A stretch of DNA of 64,000 nt from positions 62,001 to 126,000 of the IMG/VR virus record IMGVR_UViG_3300042465_007929; one strand, 5' to 3'. This document shows positions 52,458 through 63,270 of this stretch, piece after piece. The notes beneath the pieces were generated by a model. It did not search any database. It saw nothing but the letters and a program-made list of their open reading frames with translations, and was not told where the DNA came from. The stretch is from a virus. The number at the start of each line of letters is the position of its first letter. Positions within the stretch are counted from its first letter, which is position 1. Both the position numbers and the translations under genes were made by a program.

Positions 52458-52532
52458 TATAAATCAAATGTATAGTATAACTCCTCCCCCATGTGGGGGC
52501 GGGGTATCTGTGCGCCTCATGTAACCGCCTCT

Positions 52533-52609
52533 GTAAGTCGCTGAATATCAACGAGTTACGGCGGCAGAGCCGCCCCGCCTCCATAAGTCGTTGATAATCA
52601 AGCAGTTAT
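52533..52609 (+). repeat. twin-palindrome element R1
   Basis: Palindromes at 52533-52559 and 52583-52609 (50 bp apart, consensus half-site AAGTCGTTGAT) flank a GC core (GGCGGCAGAGCCGCC). Promoter P5 begins 91 bp downstream. Confidence 0.9.
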
Positions 52610-52699
52610 GAAGGGAGAAAGATCATGCCCCGAAAGCTTTGTCAAGAAAAAAGTGCAGAAAAAATGAGAAAAAAAAGATGAAAAAGATCAAAAAAGATC

Positions 52700-52728
52700 T
52701 TGCGACAATCGGGCTTTTCAGTTACTCT
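52700..52728 (+). promoter_or_regulatory. early promoter P5
   Basis: AAAAAAGATC before TTGCGA, N17, TACTCT; CTGGGC then ATG at 52735 (six bases). Confidence 0.75.
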
Positions 52729-52734
52729 CTGGGC

Positions 52735-53064
52735 ATGGAAACACTCCTTACCACTACCGCCCCAAACCTGAAAGCCGCTTATACCGCTGTCCCTCTTGAG
52801 ACAACAACAAAAACAACAGAAGGAAAAGTTGTTACTTGCTACTACGCAAAAGAACAAATCGTTTGCGACTATGGCTACAATCAAATAACAACCTACGAAA
52901 TTGGCGACAGAATCAATGGTGAGTATCGCAAAGATGGACTTGTCCAAGCTGATACTTACGGTTGCCTCACGACTAAAACAATCCCTTGGGAAAAGATCGT
53001 TACCCGCGAATATATCACGGTGCGCGAATACAAAACCACCACTTGGGAAATTCTCGATAAATAA
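52735..53064 (+). CDS. unknown 109-residue protein, leaderless start
   Basis: METLLTTTAPNLKAAYTAVP start, Thr/Tyr-rich and beta-like (ICDYGYN-type IVCDYGYNQITTYEIGDRIN, REYITVREYKTTTWEILDK). The start at the predicted transcript start is preferred to an upstream in-frame ATG inside the promoter region. No family recognised; first gene after R1. Confidence 0.65.
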   Translation: METLLTTTAPNLKAAYTAVPLETTTKTTEGKVVTCYYAKEQIVCDYGYNQITTYEIGDRINGEYRKDGLVQADTYGCLTTKTIPWEKIVTREYITVREYKTTTWEILDK

Positions 53065-53077
53065 ACGAAAAAAGATC

Positions 53078-53106
53078 TTGCTACCTGCTAAAAATTAACC
53101 TAGAAT
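53078..53106 (+). promoter_or_regulatory. early promoter P6
   Basis: TTGCTA, N17, TAGAAT; CTGCTC then ATG at 53113. Confidence 0.7.
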
Positions 53107-53112
53107 CTGCTC

Positions 53113-53301
53113 ATGACTGAAACACTACTTACCACTACTGAATTGCTCGACCTCGCTTGGAACCTCTACGACATCGTGGAAAACAAAGGCAATCATCTTC
53201 TCGAAAGTCTTTTGATTGATGTTGAAAAAGAACACGGCGAAAAAGTCCGTAGTCAAATTGAATACCTCTTGGAAGTCGAATGCAACATTCAAGACATGTA
53301 A
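53113..53301 (+). CDS. small acidic protein, leaderless start
   Basis: 62 residues, MTETLLTTTELLDLAWNLYD...VEKEHGEKVRSQIEYLLEVE: helical and acidic. The first residues METLLTTT/MTETLLTTT are like those of the 52735 gene, perhaps a shared translation-start context. Unknown family. Confidence 0.65.
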   Translation: MTETLLTTTELLDLAWNLYDIVENKGNHLLESLLIDVEKEHGEKVRSQIEYLLEVECNIQDM

Positions 53302-53320
53302 AAAAAGATCAAAAAAGATC

Positions 53321-53349
53321 TTGCTATAAGCTCGAAACTGAACTAAAAT
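53321..53349 (+). promoter_or_regulatory. early promoter P7
   Basis: TTGCTA, N17, TAAAAT; AACGCC then ATG at 53356. Confidence 0.7.
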
Positions 53350-53355
53350 AACGCC

Positions 53356-53499
53356 ATGACCACCCAATACAACGAAATGTTCGCCAAGTTCCAAAACGGC
53401 CAAATCACCGAAAAAGTCTGGTTCGACTTCTGCTTCGAAACACTGAGCCAGATCATGGAGGATAACAAGGACGTTTTTGTTCGCTTGAAAAATTGCTAA
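53356..53499 (+). CDS. 47-residue unknown protein, leaderless start
   Basis: MTTQYNEMFAKFQNGQITEK then VWFDFCFETLSQIMEDNKDVF and a basic end. Helical. Too short for family assignment. It is followed by a terminator that ends the R1 cassette. Confidence 0.6.
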   Translation: MTTQYNEMFAKFQNGQITEKVWFDFCFETLSQIMEDNKDVFVRLKNC

Positions 53500-53510
53500 T
53501 GTCAAGGAAA

Positions 53511-53536
53511 ATCTTCCCGAAAGGGGAGGTTTTTTT
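53511..53536 (+). terminator. rho-independent terminator ending the R1 cassette
   Basis: ATCTTCCC, GAAA, GGGGAGGT plus T run. Confidence 0.85.
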
Positions 53537-53593
53537 ATGCAAAAATCTGAAAATAAATCTTGACTGGGGCAAAAATGCCTGAAAATAAAAAGT

Positions 53594-53672
53594 CATAAGT
53601 CGCTAATACTCAATGAGTTATGGCGGCGGGGCGGCAGCGCCGCTGTAAGTCGTTGATAATCAATGACTTATG
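53594..53672 (+). repeat. twin-palindrome element R2
   Basis: Palindromes 53594-53622 and 53645-53672 flank GGCGGGGCGGCAGCGCC. Preceded by TGAAAATAAAAAGTCATAAG, which also precedes R8 and nearly R3; followed by CAAGTACTA and a TGTCAAGCGAAAAAG element. Confidence 0.9.
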
Positions 53673-53751
53673 CAAGTACTAGGTGCGCCGTAGTTAGGAT
53701 CTGTCAAGCGAAAAAGTGAAAAAAATAAATAAAAAAAACACAAAAAAGATC

Positions 53752-53780
53752 TTGCGCGGGGTCGATTCTTTCGCTATACT
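53752..53780 (+). promoter_or_regulatory. early promoter P8
   Basis: TTGCGC, N17, TATACT; TTGGGC then ATG at 53787. The best match to the early consensus. Confidence 0.75.
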
Positions 53781-53786
53781 TTGGGC

Positions 53787-53861
53787 ATGCGAGGGAGTGA
53801 ACGCCCTTTCAGAAAAGGACTCTCGGAGCTGGCTAGGTTGCTGAGGATAAAGTCGGGGTAA
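53787..53861 (+). CDS. possible 24-residue leaderless peptide (or part of a structured RNA)
   Basis: ATG sits at the P8 start site and a basic 24-codon frame follows (MRGSERPFRKGLSELARLLR...). The same stretch can fold as RNA, so coding is uncertain. No other gene lies between P8 and P9. Confidence 0.35.
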   Translation: MRGSERPFRKGLSELARLLRIKSG

Positions 53862-53895
53862 GATCCCCCAAATCGTGCCACTGCTTTTCTGAAAA
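53787..53895 (+). ncRNA. candidate structured small RNA driven by P8
   Basis: CAGAAAAG near 53809 pairs perfectly with CTTTTCTG near 53884, closing a domain that contains a CTC-GAG hairpin and a GGGG-CCCC hairpin (GGGGTAAGATCCCC). It begins at the strongest early promoter and contains no long frame. No known RNA family was matched by eye. Confidence 0.4.
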
Positions 53896-53901
53896 AACTT
53901 C

Positions 53902-53930
53902 TTGCACTACCTCTCAAAATTAACTACTCT
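53902..53930 (+). promoter_or_regulatory. early promoter P9
   Basis: TTGCAC, N17, TACTCT; TTGCAC then ATG at 53937. Confidence 0.75.
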
Positions 53931-53936
53931 TTGCAC

Positions 53937-54086
53937 ATGGAAAACTATAAAGGATTCAAATTCGACTACGATCAAGGCTTCATCACTTTCTATCATCCAG
54001 ACATGGAAGAGGGGAATGGAGATTGGAGCGGTTCCGCTTCCTGCATGGAAGATGCAATGGAAATCATCGACGAAATGACTTTCTAA
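53937..54086 (+). CDS. 49-residue acidic protein, leaderless start
   Basis: MENYKGFKFDYDQGFITFYH then PDMEEGNGDWSGSASCMEDAM and EIIDEMTF. A short beta hairpin followed by an amphipathic helix is suggested. Unknown family. ATG fixed by P9. Confidence 0.6.
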   Translation: MENYKGFKFDYDQGFITFYHPDMEEGNGDWSGSASCMEDAMEIIDEMTF

Positions 54087-54106
54087 GATAAAATCTAAAA
54101 AAGATC

Positions 54107-54135
54107 TTGCCATAGGTAAAAAAACAAACTAAAAT
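54107..54135 (+). promoter_or_regulatory. early promoter P10
   Basis: TTGCCA, N17, TAAAAT; TTCGCC then ATG at 54142. Confidence 0.7.
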
Positions 54136-54141
54136 TTCGCC

Positions 54142-54336
54142 ATGACCTTGGAAGACCAAATCACCCGCAACTCGAAAGAGTGCCTCGACTATCTCGCATT
54201 CTCAAACTACGAATTCAATCGGATTCTCAACCCTGAGATTTCCCCTCAACGCTGGGGGCTTGTATACGGCGCGGAGCTTGTCGAGAAAATGGAAGCGGCA
54301 TTCCAAGCAAAAAAAATGTTGACAATAGACGTTTAA
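54142..54336 (+). CDS. 64-residue unknown protein, leaderless start
   Basis: MTLEDQITRNSKECLDYLAF, then RILNPEISPQRWGLVYGAEL and a helical end. No known family. The last codons (ATGTTGACAATAGAC) contain the -35 of P11. Confidence 0.6.
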   Translation: MTLEDQITRNSKECLDYLAFSNYEFNRILNPEISPQRWGLVYGAELVEKMEAAFQAKKMLTIDV

Positions 54337-54347
54337 AATTCTAAACT
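54319..54347 (+). promoter_or_regulatory. early promoter P11 (within the previous gene end)
   Basis: TTGACA, N17, TAAACT; TTCCCCGAC (nine bases) then ATG at 54357. Confidence 0.7.
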
Positions 54348-54356
54348 TTCCCCGAC

Positions 54357-54530
54357 ATGAAAAACGCAATCCTCGAAAGTCTCTTCCTGCTTCTCTGCTC
54401 TATCCTCTGCGGTGGATTCCTCTTTCTCATCGAATGCCCCGCTTGGCTTCAAAATGGTTTCTTTGCAATGATGGTTGCACCTGCTCTCTGGTTCATTCCT
54501 CAAAGAATTTTGAGCGAGATGAAAAAATAA
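54357..54530 (+). CDS. small membrane protein (57 residues)
   Basis: MKNAILESLFLLLCSILCGG FLFL forms one hydrophobic helix and FFAMMVAPALWFIPQRI a second; the end SEMKK is basic. Two membrane spans, both ends likely inside. The start and end resemble those of the 54-residue membrane protein at 55126. It might act on the host envelope or be holin-like, but no evidence shows lysis activity. Confidence 0.6.
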   Translation: MKNAILESLFLLLCSILCGGFLFLIECPAWLQNGFFAMMVAPALWFIPQRILSEMKK

Positions 54531-54531
54531 G

Positions 54532-54560
54532 TTGACCAACTCCGAAAAATTCGTTACTCT
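54532..54560 (+). promoter_or_regulatory. early promoter P12
   Basis: TTGACC, N17, TACTCT; TTCCCCGAC then ATG at 54570. Same nine-base gap sequence as P11. The -35 begins one base after the upstream stop codon. Confidence 0.7.
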
Positions 54561-54569
54561 TTCCCCGAC

Positions 54570-54752
54570 ATGAAAACCGCTACATTCCAAATCACTGTTC
54601 ACTTCCCGAAGGCTAAATGCTATGACACATTCCTGATTGATGCCTCTGGCATTCGCTGGGCAATCGAAAATGGATCAAAAGCTGTCCAGATGAAATATCC
54701 ATCCATGATTGAAAAAGCAGATTTTGAGATCGTAACAGCAGAAAAAGTTTGA
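54570..54752 (+). CDS. 60-residue unknown protein
   Basis: MKTATFQITVHFPKAKCYDT, IRWAIENGSKAVQMKYPSMI and FEIVTAEKV: alternation of beta, helix and beta strands, like small dodecin-type or host-modulating phage proteins (a loose likeness). Similar opening beta pattern to the 56420 gene. Its TGA lies inside the -35 of P13. Confidence 0.6.
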   Translation: MKTATFQITVHFPKAKCYDTFLIDASGIRWAIENGSKAVQMKYPSMIEKADFEIVTAEKV

Positions 54753-54777
54753 CACCTGCAAAAAAATCCTTTATTCT
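54749..54777 (+). promoter_or_regulatory. early promoter P13 (overlaps the previous stop codon)
   Basis: TTGACA, N17, TATTCT; the ATG at 54800 is 22 bases on, so this mRNA would have a leader of about 16 nt (AATAAATAAC, no Shine-Dalgarno). Confidence 0.65.
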
Positions 54778-54799
54778 CACCTCGCAACCAATAAATAAC

Positions 54800-55054
54800 A
54801 TGACACTGACCTATAATACCCCATCCGCTAAAATTGCATCCGATCTTGTCGGAAAGACCGTTCGCTATCTCTCGAACAAATCCAAGACAACTCCTTCGGG
54901 TGTTCGCGTTTTCAAAATTGAAAGCGTGGAAAATGTTGACTTCGCCGCCAAGACTGGCAAGCGTTATGTAACCGTCCTTGCAAAGGACATCGACGACGCA
55001 GGAACGCCCAAGTATCGCAACTTGCACCTTGCAGGAATCGACTTGATCGTCTGA
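54800..55054 (+). CDS. 84-residue unknown basic protein
   Basis: MTLTYNTPSAKIASDLVGKT, VFKIESVENVDFAAKTGKRY, VTVLAKDIDD, KYRNLHLAGIDLIV: a beta-rich fold resembling small SH3/WYL-like RNA- or DNA-binding domains only in pattern. Start set by spacing from P13. Function unknown. Confidence 0.65.
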   Translation: MTLTYNTPSAKIASDLVGKTVRYLSNKSKTTPSGVRVFKIESVENVDFAAKTGKRYVTVLAKDIDDAGTPKYRNLHLAGIDLIV

Positions 55055-55087
55055 AGAAAAAAAGTCCTAAGCAAGACGAAAAAAGGC

Positions 55088-55117
55088 TTGACTCAAACCT
55101 ATAAAAAATTCTAAACT
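55088..55117 (+). promoter_or_regulatory. early promoter P14
   Basis: TTGACT, N18, TAAACT; CTCCCGAC (eight bases) then ATG at 55126. Confidence 0.65.
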
Positions 55118-55125
55118 CTCCCGAC

Positions 55126-55290
55126 ATGAAAAACATTATCCTTACTGCTCTGTTCTCCGCTTCTCACATTCTCATCTTCATGGTTGCCCGTGAATATCTG
55201 AACATGAAGGGCGAGCTAAACTTTCTTGTGTTCTGGTCAATGCTTGGCGTGACATGGGCCGCAGCGATTCGCGCTGAGTTGAAAAAATAA
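55126..55290 (+). CDS. small membrane protein (54 residues)
   Basis: MKNIILTALFSASHILIFMV is a membrane helix; LNFLVFWSMLGVTWAAAI a second; ends IRAELKK. Layout, first and last residues and promoter match the 54357 membrane protein, so the two may be paralogues. Unknown role at the host membrane. Confidence 0.6.
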   Translation: MKNIILTALFSASHILIFMVAREYLNMKGELNFLVFWSMLGVTWAAAIRAELKK

Positions 55291-55313
55291 TTTCTGGTAT
55301 AGTGTGTTAGGGG

Positions 55314-55344
55314 GGCTGGTTTCTGCGTAGTGGCGGAAACCAGC
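55314..55344 (+). terminator. hairpin after the membrane protein gene
   Basis: GGCTGGTTTC and GAAACCAGC arms with a 12-base loop, then CTTTCCTGTTT. Weak T tail; terminator or RNA hairpin. Confidence 0.5.
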
Positions 55345-55413
55345 TTTCCTGTTTATGAAAAAATAATTAAAAAAAGTCTTGACAACCTGCCAGCGCGTCT
55401 GAAATAAAAAAGT

Positions 55414-55492
55414 CATAAGTCGCTAAGTATCAACGAGTTACAGAGGCGGGGCCGCAGCGTCGCCGTAAGTCGTTAATAATCAACGAGTTACG
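55414..55492 (+). repeat. twin-palindrome element R3
   Basis: Palindromes 55414-55441 and 55465-55492 (51 bp apart) flank GGCGGGGCCGCAGCGTCGCC. Preceded by TTGACA-N17-AAATAA and followed by TGTCAAGCAAAA. Confidence 0.9.
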
Positions 55493-55544
55493 ACATGTCA
55501 AGCAAAATAATAAAAAAATAATTAAAAAAAACATCAAAAAGTTC

Positions 55545-55573
55545 TTGTCATGGGGTCAGATCTTCTTTATTCT
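55545..55573 (+). promoter_or_regulatory. early promoter P15
   Basis: TTGTCA, N17, TATTCT; CTGGGC then ATG at 55580. Confidence 0.75.
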
Positions 55574-55579
55574 CTGGGC

Positions 55580-55918
55580 ATGAGCTTGCTCCCATTCCCA
55601 TCCGATTCCGCCGACTACGAAGAATATTGCTCCGTCATGGAGGCGATGGCTGACGAGGCCGAAGCGTCCGCGCCTGATCCTGAGCCTGTGCATTCCGATG
55701 CTCGTTACACCGATGCCGAACTCTACCCCGAATCCCAGTATGGGGGCGATGGCCCTTGGAATGCCGACGAGGAGTCGGATGAGCTTCGCGCCCGTGAGGA
55801 TGCCGACTACTATGCCTCCATGCACGAGTGCGAGAATGAACCAGAGGATCGCTACCTTGACTCCCAATGGGAGGATGCCAATGAGTACGGCATGGAGGGA
55901 TGCTGCGGAGATTTTTGA
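55580..55918 (+). CDS. highly acidic 112-residue protein (possible DNA mimic)
   Basis: About 34 Asp/Glu against four Arg and no Lys. MSLLPFPSDSADYEEYCSVM, DADYYASMHECENEPEDRYL and GMEGCCGDF show acid and Tyr-rich composition. Phage DNA-mimic inhibitors have similar charge and size, but no sequence match to Ocr, ArdA or Ugi is seen. GC-rich codons. Leaderless start after P15; only gene of the R3 cassette. Confidence 0.6.
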   Translation: MSLLPFPSDSADYEEYCSVMEAMADEAEASAPDPEPVHSDARYTDAELYPESQYGGDGPWNADEESDELRAREDADYYASMHECENEPEDRYLDSQWEDANEYGMEGCCGDF

Positions 55919-55936
55919 AAAAAAGTCTTGACACGC

Positions 55937-56013
55937 CTAACTCGTTGAATATCAGCGAGTTACGGCGGCGGGGCGGCGCAGCCCCCATAAGTCGTTGATA
56001 ATGAGTGACTTAC
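55937..56013 (+). repeat. twin-palindrome element R4
   Basis: Palindromes 55937-55963 and 55986-56013 (49 bp apart) flank GGCGGCGGGGCGGCGCAGCC. A third related palindrome follows at 56029-56055 (CTCATTGATGCTTAATGTGT). Confidence 0.9.
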
Positions 56014-56077
56014 AGAGATTTTGTTTTCCTAACTCATTGATGCTTAATGTGTTATCTCCTATTTGTGGCATAATAAT

Positions 56078-56188
56078 TTGCAGCCTATTTGGGCTATAAA
56101 AATTTGCAGCCTATTTGTCAAGAAAAAAATCACAGCCTGTTAGGAATTTATTTTCATATTTAAGCAATAAAAGATTGCAGCCTAAAAG
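56078..56188 (+). repeat. TTGCAGCCTA repeats upstream of the 56213 gene
   Basis: TTGCAGCCTATTT at 56078 and 56104 (26-bp tandem units containing AGCCTATTTGGGCT), CACAGCCTGTTAGG at 56131 and TTGCAGCCTAAAAG at 56175. The last copy forms the -35 of P16, so these may be operator sites. Confidence 0.75.
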
Positions 56189-56203
56189 AGTTTCTGTCAT
56201 TCT
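56175..56203 (+). promoter_or_regulatory. early promoter P16
   Basis: TTGCAG, N17, CATTCT; CTCCTTGCC (nine bases) then ATG at 56213. Confidence 0.55.
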
Positions 56204-56212
56204 CTCCTTGCC

Positions 56213-56407
56213 ATGACATTTAAAGAACTCCTAGAATTAGAATCCTCATTCGACTCCTGCTTTAACGAACTGGTTTATCAGTTGAAACAAAAAGGAATGG
56301 ATCGTGAATACTATGCACTACTCACAGAAAAATATCGGTCGTTGTCTGCTCAAATTGGCACACAATTAGATTTGATTTCTCTTGACGAACAACCATTGAA
56401 AGACTAA
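56213..56407 (+). CDS. 64-residue helical protein
   Basis: MTFKELLELESSFDSCFNEL, VYQLKQKGMDREYYALLTEK, ending DLISLDEQPLKD. Two or three helices; no family. First of six genes in the R4 cassette. Confidence 0.6.
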   Translation: MTFKELLELESSFDSCFNELVYQLKQKGMDREYYALLTEKYRSLSAQIGTQLDLISLDEQPLKD

Positions 56408-56419
56408 CCTATCCCTGCC

Positions 56420-56584
56420 ATGAAAACATTCATTAGCTCCGTTACAATCAACATCGAAATCCAAGCAGAGAATCTAATCGACGCTGAAGAGAAATTCTTT
56501 GAAATGGATTTCGCCATCACTCATCCCGACGGTCAAGAAGCCGATTGGACTTTTATCGAACAAGAAATGGAAGAAAAATACTAA
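56420..56584 (+). CDS. 54-residue acidic protein
   Basis: MKTFISSVTINIEIQAENLI, DAEEKFFEMDFAITHPDGQE, ADWTFIEQEMEEKY. One beta pair then helix, acidic end. Resembles small beta-alpha proteins such as the 54570 and 58472 products. Twelve bases after the previous stop. Confidence 0.6.
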   Translation: MKTFISSVTINIEIQAENLIDAEEKFFEMDFAITHPDGQEADWTFIEQEMEEKY

Positions 56585-56585
56585 T

Positions 56586-56738
56586 ATGAAACTACTAAAG
56601 AAAATCTACAACAGGATCAATCCTCCACCACCATCAATCTATGGCAAGAACATCTTTGTTCAAAAAAGTTGGTTGACAAAACAGATGGAAGATGCTGTGT
56701 TCAATCAAGCAAAGAATCAAATCTATCAACTCCGATAA
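56586..56738 (+). CDS. 50-residue basic protein
   Basis: MKLLKKIYNRINPPPPSIYG, KNIFVQKSWLTKQMEDAVFN, QAKNQIYQLR. Basic start with a tetraproline; unknown. Starts two bases after the previous stop (TAATATG), so it is probably coupled. A longer frame beginning at 56499 was rejected because it overlaps the previous gene. Confidence 0.55.
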   Translation: MKLLKKIYNRINPPPPSIYGKNIFVQKSWLTKQMEDAVFNQAKNQIYQLR

Positions 56739-56742
56739 TGTT

Positions 56743-56964
56743 ATGTACCTCGCAACTCTTATCCATAATCAATCTCTTGGCTGCATTTTCATGTGTGACA
56801 CTTTTGAAAAGGCACTCACAAAGGCTCATTCAATCGCTGTCAATACTCTTGATCGGGATCTGCTTGAAAATGAACTCTTTGATCTCGAAGAAACTGGAGA
56901 GATTTTCGTTGAATATGATGACGACAATCAATACACTTTCTGCGTGGCACTAATTGAAGACTAA
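56743..56964 (+). CDS. 73-residue acidic protein
   Basis: MYLATLIHNQSLGCIFMCDT, FEKALTKAHSIAVNTLDRDL, then EETGEIFVEYDDDNQYTFCV. Beta-alpha-beta with a strongly acidic second half, possibly a small regulatory fold. Start chosen just after the upstream stop at 56738. Unknown family. Confidence 0.6.
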   Translation: MYLATLIHNQSLGCIFMCDTFEKALTKAHSIAVNTLDRDLLENELFDLEETGEIFVEYDDDNQYTFCVALIED

Positions 56965-56977
56965 ATAAAAAAATAAT

Positions 56978-57175
56978 ATGAAAAAAGATAATACACTGAA
57001 GCGTTGGTTGAAACTTGGATGGTCTGCTAGCTGGACTGAGCGTGAAGACAAAGCGCACAAGGCAGGCATTCTCCTCGGAGTTAAGCAGGGTCTTGAAATG
57101 GCTCGACAAAAGGAAAATAATCGTAAGCGATTGAGTTATCAAAAAAAACTTGCAAACAAGTTGACTAGCGTTTAA
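56978..57175 (+). CDS. 65-residue basic protein
   Basis: MKKDNTLKRWLKLGWSASWT, EREDKAHKAGILLGVKQGLE, then NNRKRLSYQKKLANKLTSV: very basic, a single long helix likely; may bind nucleic acid. The final codons (ACTTGCAAACAAG) hold the -35 of P17. Confidence 0.6.
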   Translation: MKKDNTLKRWLKLGWSASWTEREDKAHKAGILLGVKQGLEMARQKENNRKRLSYQKKLANKLTSV

Positions 57176-57178
57176 TCT
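57150..57178 (+). promoter_or_regulatory. early promoter P17 (within the previous gene end)
   Basis: TTGCAA, N17, TAATCT; TCGCCC (six bases) then ATG at 57185. Confidence 0.65.
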
Positions 57179-57184
57179 TCGCCC

Positions 57185-57511
57185 ATGTCAGTAAATCCTC
57201 AAGAGGCGACACTCTATTGTCGTATGGAACTCAAAAGCTATGGCTTAAAAGATCATTCCATTGTGTGGCGCGAATGGTCACACACTCTTGGGGAAGCATG
57301 GCCCTCTAATAAAGAAATACATCTTAGCTTTAGATGTTTAAAAAATAAAGAATTGCTGATCGAAATCATAAAACATGAAATCGCTCATGTGTTAGACCAT
57401 AAAGAACGTGGAACATTTTTGCGTAATGGTCGCAATGACTTTCACGGCGCAAACTGGAAAAAATGGTGCAAGGTTGTTGGCGTAAGACCTAGAAGGTTTA
57501 TCCCTGTATAA
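57185..57511 (+). CDS. SprT-like zinc metallopeptidase
   Basis: 108 residues. IIKHEIAHVLDH (HExxH at residues 64-68) with NDFHGANWKKWCKVVG (third ligand probably His87) is the SprT-like zincin signature, lacking the C-terminal zinc ribbon of full SprT proteins. IVWREWSHTLGEAWPSNKEI is the usual strand-turn before it. SprT-like proteases cut DNA-bound or damaged proteins; the phage target is unknown. Leaderless by P17. Its TAA is inside the first palindrome of R5. Confidence 0.8.
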   Translation: MSVNPQEATLYCRMELKSYGLKDHSIVWREWSHTLGEAWPSNKEIHLSFRCLKNKELLIEIIKHEIAHVLDHKERGTFLRNGRNDFHGANWKKWCKVVGVRPRRFIPV

Positions 57512-57584
57512 GTCGTTGATTATCAACGAGTTGCGGGGGCGCGGGGGCAGAGCCGCCATAAGTCGTTGATTCTTAGCGAGTTAT
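57506..57584 (+). repeat. twin-palindrome element R5
   Basis: Palindromes 57506-57534 and 57557-57584 flank GGGGGCGCGGGGGCAGAGCC. The first arm supplies the stop codon of the SprT-like gene. A TGTCAAGCAAAAAAG element follows. Confidence 0.9.
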
Positions 57585-57653
57585 AAACAATTAATTTCTT
57601 AGCCCCAAAAGCTTGTCAAGCAAAAAAGAATTTTATTTTTTATCAAATAGTTC

Positions 57654-57681
57654 TTGCAGGTATGGGGCATTCTGTTATTCT
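57654..57681 (+). promoter_or_regulatory. early promoter P18
   Basis: TTGCAG, N16, TATTCT; TTGGTCGCA (nine bases) then ATG at 57691. Confidence 0.7.
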
Positions 57682-57690
57682 TTGGTCGCA

Positions 57691-58005
57691 ATGAACGAAC
57701 CCTACGAACACTATCTAACTAACGGAGTCGATCTTCGTATTCCGCTCCATGCTCGCGCATACCTTAAAGCAGCAAGCCATTATCTTTCCAGTTGGCCGCA
57801 AGATTGGAGTGCAGAGCGTCTTTCCCTTGCTATCATGGCAGACGAAGATGAACCAGAAAGCCAAGCATTGAAAGACCGTAAAGAAGTTAAAGTTTGGGAG
57901 GCTCTAGACAGAGTTTGGGAGAATCTAGAAACAACGGAAGACGCTGGGCTTTATGTTGAAACAATGATTGCTAATCTTGCAGAAGACTTTATCCTTTTCA
58001 AATAA
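57691..58005 (+). CDS. 104-residue unknown protein
   Basis: MNEPYEHYLTNGVDLRIPLH, ARAYLKAASHYLSSWPQDWS, then acidic IMADEDEPESQALKDRKEVK and helical end. No recognised family. First of a six-gene run with tight overlaps after R5; the other five have no own promoter, so they form one transcript. Confidence 0.65.
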   Translation: MNEPYEHYLTNGVDLRIPLHARAYLKAASHYLSSWPQDWSAERLSLAIMADEDEPESQALKDRKEVKVWEALDRVWENLETTEDAGLYVETMIANLAEDFILFK

Positions 58006-58006
58006 G

Positions 58007-58225
58007 ATGAAAAACACTTTAGAAAAACTCAACGAAGTAAAAACATTTCTCAATACTTTGCTTGACAGCTCAAACGAAGAAGCGATAGACTTGCTCGTCA
58101 ACTATGGCGAAGACATCGAAGAAACATTACAAAAAGCCATTAACCAAATAATCTTATCAAAAACAAATGATCTCTGTATACCTACAAAACAAAACATATT
58201 CGACCTTGATTGCAAAATTTGCTGA
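58007..58225 (+). CDS. 72-residue helical acidic protein
   Basis: MKNTLEKLNEVKTFLNTLLD, EEAIDLLVNYGEDIEETLQK, ending FDLDCKIC with a CxxC-like CKIC. ATG one base after the previous stop (TAAGATG). Unknown family. Confidence 0.6.
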   Translation: MKNTLEKLNEVKTFLNTLLDSSNEEAIDLLVNYGEDIEETLQKAINQIILSKTNDLCIPTKQNIFDLDCKIC

Positions 58226-58328
58226 TGACGAAATCTATCAGCTTTGCTTTCCTACTTTACAAAAAGAAGCTAGCACATATGGTTGGATCATCACCGAAAC
58301 GAAAGACGAGAACCCCTTAGAAGATTAA
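58167..58328 (+). CDS. 53-residue unknown protein overlapping its neighbour
   Basis: A frame beginning inside the 58007 gene: MISVYLQNKTYSTLIAKFAD, DEIYQLCFPTLQKEASTYGW, IITETKDENPLED. Composition is protein-like (beta-alpha) and it fills the gap up to the next gene, so it is more credible than the alternative 31-codon frame from 58227. It overlaps the previous gene by 59 bases. Confidence 0.5.
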   Translation: MISVYLQNKTYSTLIAKFADDEIYQLCFPTLQKEASTYGWIITETKDENPLED

Positions 58329-58332
58329 AAGC

Positions 58333-58500
58333 ATGAAACATTTAGTATTTACAGTTACAAACGGCTTTGTAGAATTTCGCATGGGCGGACGCATGGGGAG
58401 TCATCCCCTTGGGGACGATTCGCCAGATTGGGTTATCGACTACTTAATCAAAATAATCAATCCAGACACACATGAAATCATACGATCCAAAACGAATTAA
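58333..58500 (+). CDS. 55-residue unknown protein
   Basis: MKHLVFTVTNGFVEFRMGGR, MGSHPLGDDSPDWVIDYLIK, IINPDTHEIIRSKTN. Starts four bases after the previous stop and overlaps the next gene by 29 bases. Unknown; beta start and helical middle. Confidence 0.55.
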   Translation: MKHLVFTVTNGFVEFRMGGRMGSHPLGDDSPDWVIDYLIKIINPDTHEIIRSKTN

Positions 58501-58660
58501 AGTAAAGGCAACAGTTATCATTGACATGGAAATCAATGACGGCTATACCCTTGAGGAAGCAATCGACAATCTTGTAGTCAATATGCACTGCAATCATACA
58601 GATTCTGCTTATGTGTTTGATAGTGAATTAACCTCTTACCAACCCCTATATCAATTATGA
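58472..58660 (+). CDS. 62-residue unknown protein
   Basis: MKSYDPKRIKVKATVIIDME, INDGYTLEEAIDNLVVNMHC, then SAYVFDSELTSYQPLYQL. The KVKATVxxDxE...GYTLEEA pattern is that of small phage beta-alpha-beta proteins of unknown role. Stop overlaps next ATG (ATGA). Confidence 0.6.
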   Translation: MKSYDPKRIKVKATVIIDMEINDGYTLEEAIDNLVVNMHCNHTDSAYVFDSELTSYQPLYQL

Positions 58661-58833
58661 CTGAAGAAATGCAATATGTAATCAATAGCCCTTATACAAG
58701 CTATTGGTTGAGGAATGCAATCCAAGAATGTCTTGCGCGTGATGCGCTGGATGCAAGAGCAGATGCAAAACTATTGTTTAATCTTTTAAACGATAGGCTG
58801 AACGAAATGCTTGACAAACATAAATCTGTTTGA
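58657..58833 (+). CDS. 58-residue helical protein
   Basis: MTEEMQYVINSPYTSYWLRN, AIQECLARDALDARADAKLL, then NDRLNEMLDKHKSV. All-helical, resembles small phage proteins with the SPYTSYWLRxA motif that I recall but cannot name. Last gene of the R5 cassette. Confidence 0.6.
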   Translation: MTEEMQYVINSPYTSYWLRNAIQECLARDALDARADAKLLFNLLNDRLNEMLDKHKSV

Positions 58834-58845
58834 TTCTCTTCCCCT

Positions 58846-58923
58846 GTAAGTCGTTGAAACTCAGCGACTTATGGCGGCGGGGCGGCAGCGCCGTTGTAAC
58901 TCGTTGATAATGAGTGAGTTACG
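58846..58923 (+). repeat. twin-palindrome element R6
   Basis: Palindromes 58846-58873 and 58896-58923 (50 bp apart) flank GGCGGGGCGGCAGCGCCG, almost the core of R2. Followed, as in R2, by CAAGTACTA and TGTCAAGCGAAAAAG. Confidence 0.9.
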
Positions 58924-59001
58924 CAAGTACTAAGACAGTAGTAGTTGGCGGGTGTCAAGCGAAAAAGAAAAAAGAATTTTCAGAAAAGATCAAAAAAGAT
59001 G

Positions 59002-59030
59002 TTGCAGTCCCACTCATAACGGGTTAATCT
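59002..59030 (+). promoter_or_regulatory. early promoter P19
   Basis: TTGCAG, N17, TAATCT. Here the ATG (59069) is 38 bases on, so a leader of about 32 nt ending ACCAATAAAAAAT is predicted, without Shine-Dalgarno. Confidence 0.65.
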
Positions 59031-59068
59031 TTCCCCGTCTCCAGTAAACAACTAAACCAATAAAAAAT

Positions 59069-59809
59069 ATGTCACTTATCATCTCAAGCAACAAAGTATC
59101 CGCCGAACAACTCGCCAGCGTCTTCACGCCAGCGAAAACTGATTCGCATCAGCCAATCGCTCACTCTGTCCTTGTCGATATGACCCGCGAAGCTCTCGAC
59201 CGTGTTGGCTTGCAAATCCGCGAGGAAGAGCATGGTCTTGCCAATGGCGGCTTGAACTACTTTGGTGGCTTTGCCCTCAAAGGTTCCGACATCTATTCGG
59301 CGGAACGTGAAATCGTTCTTGGTCTTCGCAATTCAAACAATAAGCGTTTCGCTGCTTCGATCTGCCTTGGCAATCGCATGATGGTTTGCGAAAACCTTTG
59401 CTTCTCGTCTGACGTGAAGCTGTCCCGCACTCATACAACGCACATCATGCGCGATCTTCCGCGCATCATTGCCGATGCCATGAGCCGCGTTGTCACTTCA
59501 TGGAATGACATGGAACAACGCATCGAAAGCTACAAGAACACCGAAATTTCCAGCCGCCGCGCTGAAAACATTGTTGTTGACTTGGCCGATTCAAAGGCTT
59601 TGCCAATCCGTGAAATTTACAACACCATTCAGGAATTTCGCAACCCTCGCCATGAGGATTTCAAGGGCGGAACCTTGTGGAGTCTTTACAACGCCGTGAC
59701 TGAAAACCTCAAAGGTTCTTGCTTTACCAAACTGCCACAGCGCACGATGGTAACGCAAAGCATCTTTGATCGTATCGCAAAGCCAGCTCAAATTTTGGTC
59801 GAGGTCTGA
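59069..59809 (+). CDS. DUF932-like phage/plasmid protein
   Basis: 246 residues. SREIVLGLRNSNNKR-type segment (AEREIVLGLRNSNNKRFAAS), ICLGNRMMVCENLCFSSDVK, and HTTHIMRDLPRIIADAMSRV match the DUF932 family common on phages and plasmids, whose function is not established. Its length is somewhat short for the family. It is the only gene of the R6 cassette and has a terminator, implying strong independent expression. Codon use is GC-rich. Confidence 0.75.
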   Translation: MSLIISSNKVSAEQLASVFTPAKTDSHQPIAHSVLVDMTREALDRVGLQIREEEHGLANGGLNYFGGFALKGSDIYSAEREIVLGLRNSNNKRFAASICLGNRMMVCENLCFSSDVKLSRTHTTHIMRDLPRIIADAMSRVVTSWNDMEQRIESYKNTEISSRRAENIVVDLADSKALPIREIYNTIQEFRNPRHEDFKGGTLWSLYNAVTENLKGSCFTKLPQRTMVTQSIFDRIAKPAQILVEV

Positions 59810-59824
59810 TCCGTATGCCGCGAG

Positions 59825-59851
59825 CCTCGCCCCGAAAGGGGCGGGGTTTTT
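59825..59851 (+). terminator. terminator after the DUF932-like gene
   Basis: CGCCCC, GAAA, GGGGCG plus GGGTTTTT. Confidence 0.9.
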
Positions 59852-59877
59852 CGCGTTGTCAAGAAAAAACTTTCAGT

Positions 59878-59956
59878 CATAACTCACTAAGTATCAAGGA
59901 GTTACGGGGGCGCGGGGGCCGCGCTGTCCTAAGTCGTTGATAATCAACGAGTTACG
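59878..59956 (+). repeat. twin-palindrome element R7
   Basis: Palindromes 59878-59905 and 59929-59956 (51 bp apart) flank GGGGGCGCGGGGGCCGCGCT. TGTCAAG elements lie on both sides (59856 and 59990). Confidence 0.9.
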
Positions 59957-60024
59957 CTGTCAACAAAAAACATAAAAAATCTCCTGTCAAGTAAAATAAA
60001 ATAAAAAATAAATGCAGAAAAGTC

Positions 60025-60052
60025 TTGTGCATCTCTCGCGTTTTGCTAACCT
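60025..60052 (+). promoter_or_regulatory. early promoter P20
   Basis: TTGTGC, N16, TAACCT; GTGGGCCAC (nine bases) then ATG at 60062. Confidence 0.6.
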
Positions 60053-60061
60053 GTGGGCCAC

Positions 60062-60769
60062 ATGAACTTGCTCAACTCTGGAAACTCCAAAACTCGTAAA
60101 GGTGAAAAAAAAGGCTGGACGACGTTCGGCATTCACCTAGCTCCCGCCTCTCTGTCTGGTTTCAATGTTTGCGACTCGTCAAGTGCGGGTTGCCGTTGGG
60201 CTTGCCTCAACACTTCGGGGCGTGGCGCAATGTCTTCCGTGCAACGCGCACGAATTGCAAAAACAAAATTGTTCTTTACTGACAAGCGGCTTTTCATGTC
60301 GATGCTCTTCAAAGAAATCACAGCAGGAATTAAGAAATCCGCAAAGACTGGAATGCGTCCTTGTTTCCGTCTCAATCTGACTTCTGATCTGCCTTGGGAA
60401 AAAATAAAGTTCGATGGATGCACTGTCATGGAAGCATTCCCAAACGTGCAATTTTACGATTATTGCAAGTCACCAGAACGCATGACTAAATTTCTGGCGG
60501 GTGAAATGCCAGCAAACTATCACTTGACCTTTTCCCGCAGTGAAGAGAATGGCGATGTTGCTTTGGCTTTCCTCAAGTCTGGCGGCAATGTTGCAATGGT
60601 CTTTCGTAATTCTCTCCCCTCTTCTTACTTTGGCCATGAGGTAATCGACGGAGACGAAACCGATTTGCGCTTCCTCGACGGTTCGGGCAAGATCATTGGT
60701 CTGAAAGAAAAGGGTCTTGCTAAAAAAGACTCGACAGGCTTTGTCCTCGAACCTACACTTGCATCATGA
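60062..60769 (+). CDS. GP88-like phage protein with Cys cluster
   Basis: 235 residues. NSKTRKGEKKGWTTFGIHLA, GFNVCDSSSAGCRWACLNTS (Cys37, Cys44, Cys48), and RARIAKTKLFFTDKRLFMSM match the mycobacteriophage gene product 88-like family found in many phages. The Cys triad suggests a metal site; role unknown. The start is placed at the P20 transcript, three residues inside a longer open frame. Confidence 0.75.
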   Translation: MNLLNSGNSKTRKGEKKGWTTFGIHLAPASLSGFNVCDSSSAGCRWACLNTSGRGAMSSVQRARIAKTKLFFTDKRLFMSMLFKEITAGIKKSAKTGMRPCFRLNLTSDLPWEKIKFDGCTVMEAFPNVQFYDYCKSPERMTKFLAGEMPANYHLTFSRSEENGDVALAFLKSGGNVAMVFRNSLPSSYFGHEVIDGDETDLRFLDGSGKIIGLKEKGLAKKDSTGFVLEPTLAS

Positions 60770-60876
60770 AGCCTTGGCAATACCTGATTCTGTTTTTTAC
60801 TTTTCTGATTCTCGCTTTCCATCGAGACAGAAAAAACATCTTCAAGCGTGAACTTAACCCAGAAAATTTTGAATGA
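60766..60876 (+). CDS. 36-residue membrane peptide
   Basis: MKPWQYLILFFTFLILAFHR then DRKNIFKRELNPENFE: one membrane helix, positive-inside tail. Its ATG overlaps the previous stop (ATGA) and its stop overlaps the next ATG, so it is translationally linked on both sides. Confidence 0.55.
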   Translation: MKPWQYLILFFTFLILAFHRDRKNIFKRELNPENFE

Positions 60877-61070
60877 ACCTTTTTCAATTCATCGAAGATG
60901 TTGATGCTGGCAAGTTCTTTGTTTCTGCCGTGCATGATGGTTGCAGCGTAACAAACATTGCGATTTATCCCATAGTTGATTCTTTAGTATATCCTGCGCT
61001 ACTCATGGACTTGCATTCGATGCAGCCTCTGATTGATATGGTAGAGGATAAACTTGCGGAAGTTGCATGA
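60873..61070 (+). CDS. 65-residue unknown protein
   Basis: MNLFQFIEDVDAGKFFVSAV, HDGCSVTNIAIYPIVDSLVY, then helical acid end. No family. Last gene of the R7 cassette, followed by a terminator. Confidence 0.6.
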   Translation: MNLFQFIEDVDAGKFFVSAVHDGCSVTNIAIYPIVDSLVYPALLMDLHSMQPLIDMVEDKLAEVA

Positions 61071-61081
61071 GATAAAATTGT

Positions 61082-61106
61082 CCACCTCGCAAGAGGTGGC
61101 TTTTTT
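61082..61106 (+). terminator. terminator ending the R7 cassette
   Basis: CCACCTC, GCAA, GAGGTGG then CTTTTTT. Confidence 0.92.
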
Positions 61107-61163
61107 GTGAAAATTTCTTAAAATAATTCTTGACAAGCGAAAAAAGTTCTGAAAATAAAAAGT

Positions 61164-61241
61164 CATAAGTGACTCATTATCAACGAGTTAGGGAGGCGGG
61201 GCCGGGACGCGCCCGTAAGTCCTTTAGTATCAGTGAGTTAT
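61164..61241 (+). repeat. twin-palindrome element R8
   Basis: Palindromes 61164-61191 and 61215-61241 (51 bp apart) flank GGAGGCGGGGCCGGGACGCG. The arms are the most diverged of the family. P21 begins only 28 bp downstream. Confidence 0.85.
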
Positions 61242-61268
61242 AAAAGAAAAAAAATAATAAAAAACTTG

Positions 61269-61297
61269 TTGACGTTGTGAGCTGACTGGGTTAATCT
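61269..61297 (+). promoter_or_regulatory. early promoter P21
   Basis: TTGACG, N17, TAATCT; CTCCCCGTC (nine bases) then ATG at 61307. Confidence 0.75.
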
Positions 61298-61306
61298 CTC
61301 CCCGTC

Positions 61307-61600
61307 ATGAAAAAACTATTCTTTGAATACACGCTTGCTGCCTTTCCAATCTACGACGAAGGAAAGAAACTCTTTTCAGAAGTCATCGTCGAAGACGATA
61401 TGGATGACGATTGCATTCTTGAAACCATCTTTGCTTGGTGCAATAATGGATCGCGCAGAGAATGTCAAGCATTTCTTGATTCAAATCTTCGCTCTCTTTC
61501 CGTCGGTGATTATGTTACTATTGGCACTTGCTTTTCCGACGCTCGCAAGTATCGTTGTGAATCGCAGGGCTGGACTCACTTCCTTGCAAGACTCCACTAA
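61307..61600 (+). CDS. 97-residue unknown protein
   Basis: MKKLFFEYTLAAFPIYDEGK, VIVEDDMDDDCILETIFAWC, RSLSVGDYVTIGTCFSDARK, ending GWTHFLARLH. Looks like a small beta-alpha domain with an acidic loop. No recognised family. First of five genes in the R8 cassette. Confidence 0.65.
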   Translation: MKKLFFEYTLAAFPIYDEGKKLFSEVIVEDDMDDDCILETIFAWCNNGSRRECQAFLDSNLRSLSVGDYVTIGTCFSDARKYRCESQGWTHFLARLH

Positions 61601-61604
61601 TACC

Positions 61605-61982
61605 ATGAAACAAATCCAAGTATACTACAACTTCCGCAAAAAGCTTTTCTCCGTTCAAGAGAAGATCAATGGCAAGTGGAAGGTCGTTGAACACACAAAC
61701 GAAATCTTTATCCGTAATGCCACGTTCAAGGTGAGCGAGGCAGGGCGGCAAAGAGTAATCAAGGAGAAGCGCAAAAATGTTCATGCAAAGATCGTGGGTG
61801 AGCGTTTCCCATTCATCCCCAAGTCTTTTGTCTACCGCGACGAAGTTTCTTACAACCCTTACAAGGGACCAAACTTTATGGTAGTATCAGAACAAAAACC
61901 TCTTGACTGGGCAAAATATGTCACTATTCTCAACGGCAAGGTGATCGCACTGATCCCCGAATTCAAAGGAACAAGAATCTAA
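61605..61982 (+). CDS. 125-residue basic unknown protein
   Basis: MKQIQVYYNFRKKLFSVQEK, FIRNATFKVSEAGRQRVIKE, KRKNVHAKIVGERF, KYVTILNGKVIALIPEFKGT. The first half (YYNxRKxxFSVxxxxxGxWK) fits a recurrent phage protein pattern of unknown role. The ATG four bases after the upstream stop is chosen over longer frames that run through the previous gene. Confidence 0.65.
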   Translation: MKQIQVYYNFRKKLFSVQEKINGKWKVVEHTNEIFIRNATFKVSEAGRQRVIKEKRKNVHAKIVGERFPFIPKSFVYRDEVSYNPYKGPNFMVVSEQKPLDWAKYVTILNGKVIALIPEFKGTRI

Positions 61983-61993
61983 CAACTAAAACT

Positions 61994-62341
61994 ATGGGCC
62001 TCGATCAATACGCAAAAGTTCGCAATCCAAAAACGCAAGAAATGGAGGAGTTCCACTACTGGCGCAAACATAACGCTCTGCATGGGTGGATGGAAAATCT
62101 CTGGAAGTCCAAGGGTAATACTGGCGAGTTCAACTGCGAACCAGTCCAGCTTTCCCATGCCGATCTTGATTCACTCAAGAAGGATCTTATGGCAAGCAGC
62201 TTGCCAGAGACAAAAGGATTCTTTTTCGGTTCTGATAGCAACCTCGACGATTCGCGTCTGATGGATGACCTTCACTTCATCGCACAAGCAAAAGAACATC
62301 TTGACGTAGGGATGGAAGTCGCCTACGATTCTTGGTGGTAA
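61994..62341 (+). CDS. conserved phage/bacterial protein of the MGLDQY type
   Basis: 115 residues. MGLDQYAKVRNPKTQEMEEF, WRKHNALHGWMENLWKSKG, NCEPVQLSHADLDSL, LPETKGFFFGSD, and a C-terminal VAYDSWW are the fixed marks of a family widespread in phages, often mislabelled as phosphoglycerate kinase. Function is not known. The spacing and length match the family. Confidence 0.75.
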   Translation: MGLDQYAKVRNPKTQEMEEFHYWRKHNALHGWMENLWKSKGNTGEFNCEPVQLSHADLDSLKKDLMASSLPETKGFFFGSDSNLDDSRLMDDLHFIAQAKEHLDVGMEVAYDSWW

Positions 62342-62366
62342 GATAAATCTCCAACAAACAAACACT

Positions 62367-62633
62367 ATGATACAAATTGCACAAAAAATGACAATGTGGG
62401 AAGAGTTCAATATCGAAGACGATATGCAAGAATCTCTTTTGAGCTATCTCAAAGACTTTCCCAACGCCGATTATAATGACCTTTATAACTGGGCTTGTGA
62501 CAATGGTTGCGATCCAGAGTCTCACACTCTGGAAGGAACCGAAGAAGTTCTAACGCCAGAAGATAATGGTGGGCAATCTACTCTTGAAATCACCGCATTC
62601 CCAAACAATAAAATCATTTTTCAAAACGCATGA
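62367..62633 (+). CDS. 88-residue acidic protein
   Basis: MIQIAQKMTMWEEFNIEDDM, LKDFPNADYNDLYNWACDNG, then ITAFPNNKIIFQNA. Acidic; unknown. Stop overlaps the next ATG. Confidence 0.6.
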   Translation: MIQIAQKMTMWEEFNIEDDMQESLLSYLKDFPNADYNDLYNWACDNGCDPESHTLEGTEEVLTPEDNGGQSTLEITAFPNNKIIFQNA

Positions 62634-62800
62634 ACCACATTGACTTTATCATGGCCTACGAAGGTGGGGAAATCACAACAGAAGAAGAATTGATCGCTGG
62701 CTTTCAAGCTATGATCGACGACGGCTCTGTCTGGGAACTTCAAGGGTTCTATGGGCGAACTGCTCGCGGCTTGATTGATTGTGGCGATTGCCACGCATAA
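62630..62800 (+). CDS. 56-residue conserved small phage protein
   Basis: MNHIDFIMAYEGGEITTEEE, LIAGFQAMIDDGSVWELQGF, YGRTARGLIDCGDCHA. This IMAYExGE...WxLQGxYGRxAxxLIxxGxC pattern is common in phages as an uncharacterised small protein. Overlaps the previous stop by four bases. Last gene before R9. Confidence 0.7.
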   Translation: MNHIDFIMAYEGGEITTEEELIAGFQAMIDDGSVWELQGFYGRTARGLIDCGDCHA

Positions 62801-62813
62801 AAGCTTGACTCTC

Positions 62814-62891
62814 CTAACTCGTTGGTTATCAGCGAGTTATGGAGGCGCGGCCCCCTCTTCGTCATAACTCTTTGATTATCAGTGACTTATG
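62814..62891 (+). repeat. twin-palindrome element R9
   Basis: Palindromes 62814-62841 and 62863-62891 (49 bp apart) flank GGAGGCGCGGCCCCCTCTTC. Confidence 0.9.
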
Positions 62892-62897
62892 TCAATT

Positions 62898-62926
62898 CAT
62901 AAGTTGTTGATGCTTAGTGTGTTATG
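62898..62926 (+). repeat. third palindrome of R9, overlapping a promoter
   Basis: CATAAGTTGTTGATGCTTAG followed by its complementary half. It covers the -35 and spacer of the promoter at 62904-62932. A relative lies after R4 at 56029-56055. Confidence 0.8.
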
Positions 62927-62932: not shown

Positions 62933-62935
62933 ATT

Positions 62936-63138
62936 GTTTATTTAGATCATGGGTATTCACAGGTAGAAAAGAGTAGGGTAGCGTTGACGAACTCATCCGC
63001 CGACGCTACCCTTGCAGCATCACCATTGCCGCTTTACGTTAGTGAAAATTTGTTTATTTAGGTTCGTTTTATTCACAGGGAAAAATGGTAGGGAGTTTAT
63101 GAACTGAGGAAAACTAATGAAACCTCCTCCCTACCATT
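62936..63138 (+). ncRNA. two tandem hairpin-forming elements (candidate small RNAs)
   Basis: Two diverged units about 116 bp apart, each beginning GTTTATTTAG and containing TATTCACAGG then GTAGGG. Unit 1 has a 9-bp perfect stem (GGGTAGCGT, 62976-62984, with 63003-63011). Unit 2 has a 12-bp perfect stem (AATGGTAGGGAG, 63084-63095, with 63127-63138). No protein-coding frame is credible. The stems differ in sequence but keep position, which suggests RNA structure. Confidence 0.5.
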
Positions 63139-63193: not shown

Positions 63194-63270
63194 TGGTGAT
63201 TCAGACAGAACTCGAATCTGTAACCTACACATTAGAAGTGTGTTGCTCTATCCAATTGAGCTACTGAACC
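63194..63270 (-). tRNA. tRNA-Arg (anticodon UCU), CCA encoded
   Basis: Minus strand: acceptor GGTTCAG pairs with CTGAATC (one G-U), D arm GCTC/GAGC, anticodon arm ACACA/TGTGT with loop CTTCTAA, T arm ACAGA/TCTGT with loop TTCGAGT, discriminator A and encoded CCA. It reads AGA, the Arg codon favoured by the AT-rich late genes. Confidence 0.93.

Follow-up and report, generated by a model that had tools for sequence, protein, structure and literature searches.

The stretch of DNA described here, called the window, covers positions 62001-126000 (64,000 nucleotides) of the 139,990-bp IMG/VR phage record IMGVR_UViG_3300042465_007929, labelled G000. A block of small genes near its right end contains nine copies, R1 to R9, of a composite element in which two palindromes enclose a GC-rich core. 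An initial annotation, made from the letters alone, had reported nine copies, and all of them are confirmed no more than 1-3 bp from the positions then given. The features are listed below by their coordinates in the window. No strand is assigned to any of them, and palindrome A, the first of each pair, begins at the first coordinate of each element.

R1, 52534-52608: palindromes 52534-52558 and 52584-52608; GC core 52559-52583, inverted relative to most others
R2, 53596-53670: palindromes 53596-53620 and 53646-53670; core 53621-53645; intrinsic terminator upstream at 53513-53529
R3, 55416-55490: palindromes 55416-55440 and 55466-55490
R4, 55938-56012: palindromes 55938-55962 and 55988-56012
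Degenerate third palindrome after R4, 56030-56054: one good half-site; from the weight-matrix scan
R5, 57509-57583: palindromes 57509-57533 and 57559-57583
R6, 58847-58921: palindromes 58847-58871 and 58897-58921
R7, 59880-59954: palindromes 59880-59904 and 59930-59954; between the DUF932 and GP88 genes
R8, 61166-61240: palindromes 61166-61190 and 61216-61240; intrinsic terminator upstream at 61082-61099
R9, 62815-62889: palindromes 62815-62839 and 62865-62889; downstream of the block's last plus-strand transcription unit
Degenerate third palindrome after R9, 62900-62924: from the weight-matrix scan

The layout of the element is the same in all nine copies: a GC-rich core of 25 bp with a 25-bp palindrome on either side, 75 bp in total. 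Each palindrome consists of a 12-bp half-site, 1 bp and another 12-bp half-site, and the centres of the two palindromes are exactly 50 bp apart in 9/9 elements. The initial annotation had correctly recognized two palindromes around a GC-rich core, their constant spacing and a recurrent half-site. Its dimensions were slightly too large or too loose (palindromes of 27-29 bp, an element of ~79 bp, a spacing of 49-51 bp), and the half-site consensus, TAASTCRYTGAT, is broader than the half-site AAGTCGTTGAT that it proposed.

These lengths are fixed to the base although the cores and arms in the window diverge widely in sequence. Homology between copies is only 60-80%, the core sequence turns over fast, and comparison of the cores places that of R1 in the orientation opposite to most others. 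A search with the consensus gave 35 matches where 1.75 were expected, a number reached by none of 100 shuffles. The element had been described as restricted to a region of about 10 kb; this holds for the whole phage, as the remainder of the ~140-kb genome, scanned with a weight matrix, has no palindrome outside the block.

The element is widely conserved in related phages, so the lack of conservation that the initial annotation had named as a refutation does not apply. A strict one-palindrome pattern was found in more than 119 IMG/VR stretches among the matches listed, many of them with at least two palindromes 50 bp apart. From IMG/VR loci sharing genes with G000, 248 distinct elements were gathered with a matrix built from this window, which under-samples weaker variants. 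The contigs that bear elements have genes in common with G000; for six large records these number about 35 to 50 and include DNA polymerase, helicase, terminase and clamp loader, named from phrog/Pfam matches where these were obtained. In the large records the elements are again confined to a single part of the genome, such as 97-107 kb in G020 and 105-116 kb in G016. They follow one another at intervals of about 1.1 kb (median coefficient of variation 0.36) and occur in both orientations (128/236 plus), with pyrimidine-purine (YR) dinucleotides flanking the palindromes on both sides. The phage isolate and plasmid collections searched contained no convincing copy.

The spacing of the palindromes is mostly constant within a phage. 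It is 50 bp in 146 of the 248 elements and 41-42, 51-53 or 58-60 bp in other phages. The third palindrome seen after R9 has counterparts in the relatives L133, L135 and L137, 35-36 bp further on. In the same three relatives R7 keeps its position between DUF932 and GP88. Around these two genes elements are kept at corresponding places, and the gene content between other elements changes; in L137 one gene has relocated to the opposite side of an element.

Elements avoid genes and favour particular gaps between them. Not one of 215 elements falls within a gene as defined by codon-based calling. Among gaps of at least 100 bp, elements occupy 146/227 (64%) of those between tandem genes, 18/26 (69%) of those between convergent genes and 10/42 (24%) of those between divergent genes (convergent vs divergent, p=3e-4; tandem vs divergent, p=2e-6). 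Activator or operator sites upstream of genes would show the reverse pattern; the one observed indicates 3' ends of transcription units or boundaries between them. The block in the window follows the same pattern: no element precedes its first plus-strand unit (ATG at 51326, promoter near 51.3 kb), R9 lies downstream of its last, and the stop codon of the open reading frame (ORF) 57185-57511 is the first TAA of the R5 palindrome. The intergenic module of terminator, element and promoter is also repeated as a whole (159-nt family D2).

Evidence on whether the arms act as DNA or as RNA can be drawn from the way they vary. A stem in RNA or in a cruciform would show matched changes in the two arms. 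Covariation was computed for all four arm pairings, the flanks and the core ends. In the window there are 162 Watson-Crick arm pairs, against 167.7 +/- 3.8 when arms are shuffled among the 18 palindromes; over the 248 elements there are 4474, against 4478.5 +/- 20. Single arm positions deviate in both directions (4 and 7 positive, 8 and 12 negative), and shuffles within phages, with the elements oriented, make every stem-forming pairing negative. The result is the absence of positive covariation, since the negative values may partly come from mixed orientations. No matched changes being seen, selection acts on double-stranded DNA and not on pairing in RNA or a cruciform, and the arms read as a DNA-level dimer site. 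Complementary core ends and flanks, which had pooled z values of 10.5 and up to 4.5, were rejected as a signal of pairing: within-phage shuffling reverses their sign, which marks a between-phage effect.

A dimeric DNA-binding protein acting at paired sites had been suggested in the initial annotation. The independent variation of the arms, the fixed half-site and the spacing kept within each phage support this part of the suggestion, and a likely protein family can now be named from a match to the consensus of IHF.

The half-site TAASTCRYTGAK, which reads ATCARYGASTTA on the other strand, contains this consensus in reverse (YAANNNNYTGATW). Among 944 phage half-sites, positions Y1, A2, A3, Y8 and T9 are satisfied in 99.8-100%, G10 in 86%, A11 in 90% and T12 in 51%. 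In the window, 21/36 half-sites fit all 13 consensus positions. Every element has at least one exact match; the nine elements, with 1% of the DNA, hold 21 of the 35 exact matches of the 64-kb window, and the frequency elsewhere is 0.22 per kb.

The consensus W falls on the centre of the palindrome. In the IHF-DNA structure, too, the W position is at the dyad, and IHF bends DNA by about 160 degrees. By structural reasoning, each palindrome looks like a two-sided IHF site. Compared with the sites of E. coli (consensus WATCARNNNNTTR, quoted in PMC9519438 and PMC8407004), every defined position is present in the half-site, and the kinks in IHF-DNA, 9 bp apart (PMC8421141), would be symmetric about the palindrome centre. 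Unlike E. coli sites, those of the phages are symmetric, with the consensus in both arms, carry an additional conserved TC and are paired at a fixed distance.

The explanation favoured here, at roughly even odds (a probability of about 0.5), is that the elements are paired sites for an IHF-like protein of the host and serve as boundary or insulator elements between operons. Each 25-bp palindrome would be a symmetrized site for one dimer of the IHF/HU (DNABII) family, most likely supplied by the host, and a pair of these sites, 50 bp apart with a GC-rich spacer in between, would make up one element. In the small-gene block, the bound dimers would fold the DNA between adjacent transcription units into a compact nucleoprotein knot. 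By acting as a roadblock, such a knot could limit read-through by RNA polymerase, and it could also restrict how far supercoiling spreads from one operon to the next. We infer three parts of this proposal: a DNABII protein as the binder, two dimers bound at once, and insulation as the effect.

In simulation, bridging by IHF can separate DNA into topological domains (PMC9519438). The nearest precedent in function comes from E. coli, where transcription units carry IHF-bound repeats at their 3' ends, the reiterative ihf BIMEs (RIB) among the bacterial interspersed mosaic elements (BIME) (PMC2817692, which cites Boccard & Prentki 1993). The boundary role proposed for the phage element is modelled on what these are thought to do.

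Bacterial genomes provide some evidence on the identity of the binder. In G000 and seven related phage records no HU/IHF gene scores above the cut-off, and DNABII genes are present in the bacterial genomes searched; the host would thus supply the protein. In Fibrobacteraceae, where the palindrome occurs in 20/31 genomes, the phage-derived half-site matrix scores above 11 within 80 bp before 9/30 DNABII genes, compared with 0/1530 control windows. The nine matches belong to two paralogous groups, and as the genes and genomes are related they amount to a few independent cases. Many of the DNABII genes without the half-site appear to lie directly downstream of another gene, and in one Fibrobacter genome a palindrome copy is just upstream of an IHF-like gene. 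The enrichment before DNABII genes supports, short of proof, a self-regulating IHF/HU-family protein as the binder.

Single palindromes are dispersed in a few other genomes. There are 48 at up to 2 mismatches in a Lentisphaeria metagenome-assembled genome (MAG), 13 in an Akkermansia MAG and 12 in a Verrucomicrobiales MAG, and they occur in Fibrobacter as well; a reversed-pattern control gave 0. The Lentisphaeria copies have the same flanking YR dinucleotides and T-rich outer flank as the phage elements. Two contigs (L212 and L266) of a Verrucomicrobiales MAG belong to this phage family, a weak hint at a Verrucomicrobiales host.

Several observations weigh against an IHF-like binder or a boundary role. 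The TC at half-site positions 5-6 is nearly invariant where the E. coli consensus has NNNN, which means that the binder recognizes more than IHF does, and about half of the half-sites lack the consensus T at position 12. Verrucomicrobiota surely have HU/IHF, and the palindrome is absent from most of their genomes (7/114 have it, with one copy each). Where DNABII genes are preceded by the half-site, there is usually just one, and these genes could be under another regulator. In Fibrobacter, unlike in the phages, the dispersed sites are found mostly at divergent promoters (24 divergent, 13 tandem, 1 convergent). Finally, the spacing classes (34, 41-44, 48-54 and 58-60 bp) are out of helical register, so that helical phase is not conserved. 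The earlier description of the spacing as close to five helical turns fails on the same account, since 50 bp amounts to 4.76 turns of 10.5 bp each and relatives use 41-42 or 58-60 bp.

The main alternative is a sequence-specific regulator from outside the IHF/HU family, encoded by phage or host, with a related site. The elements would then be its operators and the small-gene block its regulon, with initiation or elongation stopped in the manner of stoperators. This is a real though clearly less probable possibility. It would account for the near-invariant TC, which exceeds the IHF consensus, for the preference of single sites in Fibrobacter and an Akkermansia MAG for divergent promoter regions, as is usual for operators, and for the patchy distribution among bacterial genomes. 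A spacing that differs between phages and is mostly constant within each would suit a co-evolving protein, and stoperators are likewise intergenic and numerous (PMC9283540). This alternative, however, leaves the resemblance to the IHF consensus to chance, and gaps with two promoters are depleted in the phages. Among the scanned proteins of G000 that are common to related phages, in a scan covering part of the gene set, there is no obvious DNA-binding regulator.

The stoperators of Cluster A mycobacteriophages (L5, TipsytheTRex) are also present in many copies in short intergenic spaces and are proposed to stop elongation. Each is a lone asymmetric 13-mer that is oriented with transcription and binds a monomer of the phage repressor, whereas the elements described here are paired quasi-palindromes, gathered in one block in both orientations, and no repressor was recognized among the G000 proteins scanned.

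A terminator or attenuator working as RNA, in which the palindromes and a GC stem form a hairpin, is improbable. Whole elements have strong predicted folds (-25 to -39 kcal/mol), their flanks taken over all phages are A-rich on the left and T-rich on the right, and in the 58-60 bp class of other phages the core is a good stem-loop (z about -2.4 and -1.4). In the 50-bp class, by contrast, the GC core is no more stable than shuffles (z -0.3), and the arms show no covariation. None of the nine window elements is called as an intrinsic terminator (a GC stem with an immediate T-run), and most copies in the window have no T-run after them. Several copies in G000, such as R2 and R8, have a classical terminator just upstream, and an Rfam search of the window matched none of the elements, only a tRNA at 63197-63270.

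Still less likely are palindromic repeats of the repetitive extragenic palindromic (REP) or BIME kind, spread by an IS200/IS605-type transposase (REP-associated tyrosine transposase, RAYT) and acting mainly as hairpins of RNA or single-stranded DNA. Like REPs, the elements are intergenic, lie in unidirectional and convergent gaps near 3' ends (PMC3733652) and come as paired copies, and single palindromes are dispersed in some bacterial genomes. However, REP palindromes change in a complementary way (PMC2817692), which the arms here do not, and neither the GTAG nor the CGTC tag that defines them (PMC3733652) is found at one end, only YR dinucleotides. The phage genome has no Y1 transposase (0 PF01797, Y1_Tnp, matches), and element positions are conserved between relatives. 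The elements thus do not correspond to a known REP/BIME or transposon end of the hosts, the identity that the initial annotation had named as speaking against a new phage element.

Equally doubtful is a role as recombination punctuation, that is, as points of homologous or site-specific exchange that shuffle small gene cassettes, in the manner reported for promoter/stem-loop cassettes in T4-type phages: the terminator-element-promoter module is repeated as a whole (D2), gene content between elements varies among relatives and one gene switched sides in L137, but the copies are only 60-80% homologous with cores that turn over quickly, no breakpoints are apparent inside palindromes, and the half-site geometry is unlike that of tyrosine recombinase sites. 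The recombination or replication element offered earlier as an option likewise finds little support, as there is no crossover region of 2 bp or 6-8 bp flanked by half-sites and the elements stand, many per genome, at conserved places beside conserved genes.

Besides the E. coli IHF sites and the stoperators, two known systems come close to the paired IHF-like boundary sites favoured here. RIB/BIME-1 of enterobacteria, two REP palindromes around an IHF site, is likewise a short composite, intergenic and located at 3' ends, and it binds IHF. In the phage element, by contrast, the IHF consensus is in both arms of the palindromes and not between them, the spacer is GC-rich, there is no REP tag, RAYT or arm covariation, and the copies are confined to one phage block where RIB/BIME-1 is spread over a whole chromosome. 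In T4-type phages, promoter/stem-loop cassettes are reportedly located between early genes. These resemble the phage element in being a repeated intergenic module between small accessory genes; they differ from it in that the phage element shows no selection for a stem-loop.

In a large family of uncultured phages the element recurs as a DNA feature of precise construction, and it is a sequence signature by which members of the family can be spotted in metagenomes. If the IHF reading is true, the phage uses a nucleoid protein of its host as an operon boundary. The family would then offer hundreds of natural paired sites of fixed geometry for studies of bending, bridging and transcription roadblocks by IHF-type proteins, and the role of IHF at 3' ends of transcription units could be tested on a short defined sequence. 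A broader and more tentative proposal is that the family as a whole has a boundary system of paired, symmetrized host IHF-like sites, by which an early-type gene block would be partitioned into insulated domains of about 1 kb. Supercoiling and transcription would thereby be separate for each operon; such an arrangement, which resembles chromatin insulators, has to our knowledge not been described in phages.

Phage proteins were also considered as binders. The most widely common small protein of the block, an 84-amino-acid protein at 54800-55054 (+), occurs in 38 element-bearing loci. Its model is a confident stand-alone WYL-like domain (predicted local distance difference test score, pLDDT, 90), whose best Foldseek matches are PafBC, CapW and BrxR, none below E 0.05. 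As the model has no DNA-binding part, the protein was rejected as the binder of the element; judging from the model, it is possibly a decoy or a ligand-sensing partner of host WYL regulators.

Beyond the window end, L013 1443-1697 (-) encodes a small conserved protein that carries an AT-hook-like motif (KRRGRPAGSTSF in relatives). Its gene adjoins a clamp-loader-like gene and is found in 5/6 large relatives; the AlphaFold model is poor (pLDDT 66). A sigma-factor-like protein (phrog_1740, weak match) at 43437-44150 (-) occurs in 38 element-bearing loci, next to PhoH, zinc-ribbon, ERCC4-nuclease and terminase genes.

A promoter-like module, AAAAAAGATCTTGC/TTGT-N17-TATNCT, is repeated over 51214-62800, for example at 53750-53789, 55540-55582 and 57650-57693, with TGTCAAG and an A-rich stretch ahead of many copies. 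It is also found at the first unit (51.25-51.33 kb), where there is no palindrome element. The ATG lies only 6-9 nt beyond the -10 box, a distance that suggests leaderless mRNAs.

AT-rich direct repeats follow the third palindromes of R9 (62934-63110) and R4 (56057-56190). They read TTGTTTATTTAG...TATTCACAGG and CCTATTTG...TTGCAG and include a DnaA-box-like TTATTCACA; from their sequence they are possibly a candidate replication origin. GC skew gives no clear origin at the element block. At the record ends (L009 156-392 and L013 14164-14400), near-identical but inexact copies of one 78-amino-acid ORF form an imperfect terminal repeat, and a half-site-like TAAGTCGTTAGT occurs once in each copy.

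Contig L138 encodes a GP88 protein that is 74% identical, closer than many from element-bearing contigs, yet it has no palindromes. Instead, at least 14 copies of ATAAAACGTTAG stand just before its genes, apparently a different promoter or operator system.

The Bacteroidales matches of a genome scan were set aside, being perfect stems with A and T runs after tRNA or tmRNA genes that have the look of ordinary bidirectional terminators. At L163, L173, L177, L228, L235 and similar Bacteroidales loci, tRNA and tmRNA genes are often followed by a perfect stem, TAAGTCGCTGA-N3-TCAGCGACTTA, which sits between A and T runs and is recurrent, bidirectional and terminator-like.

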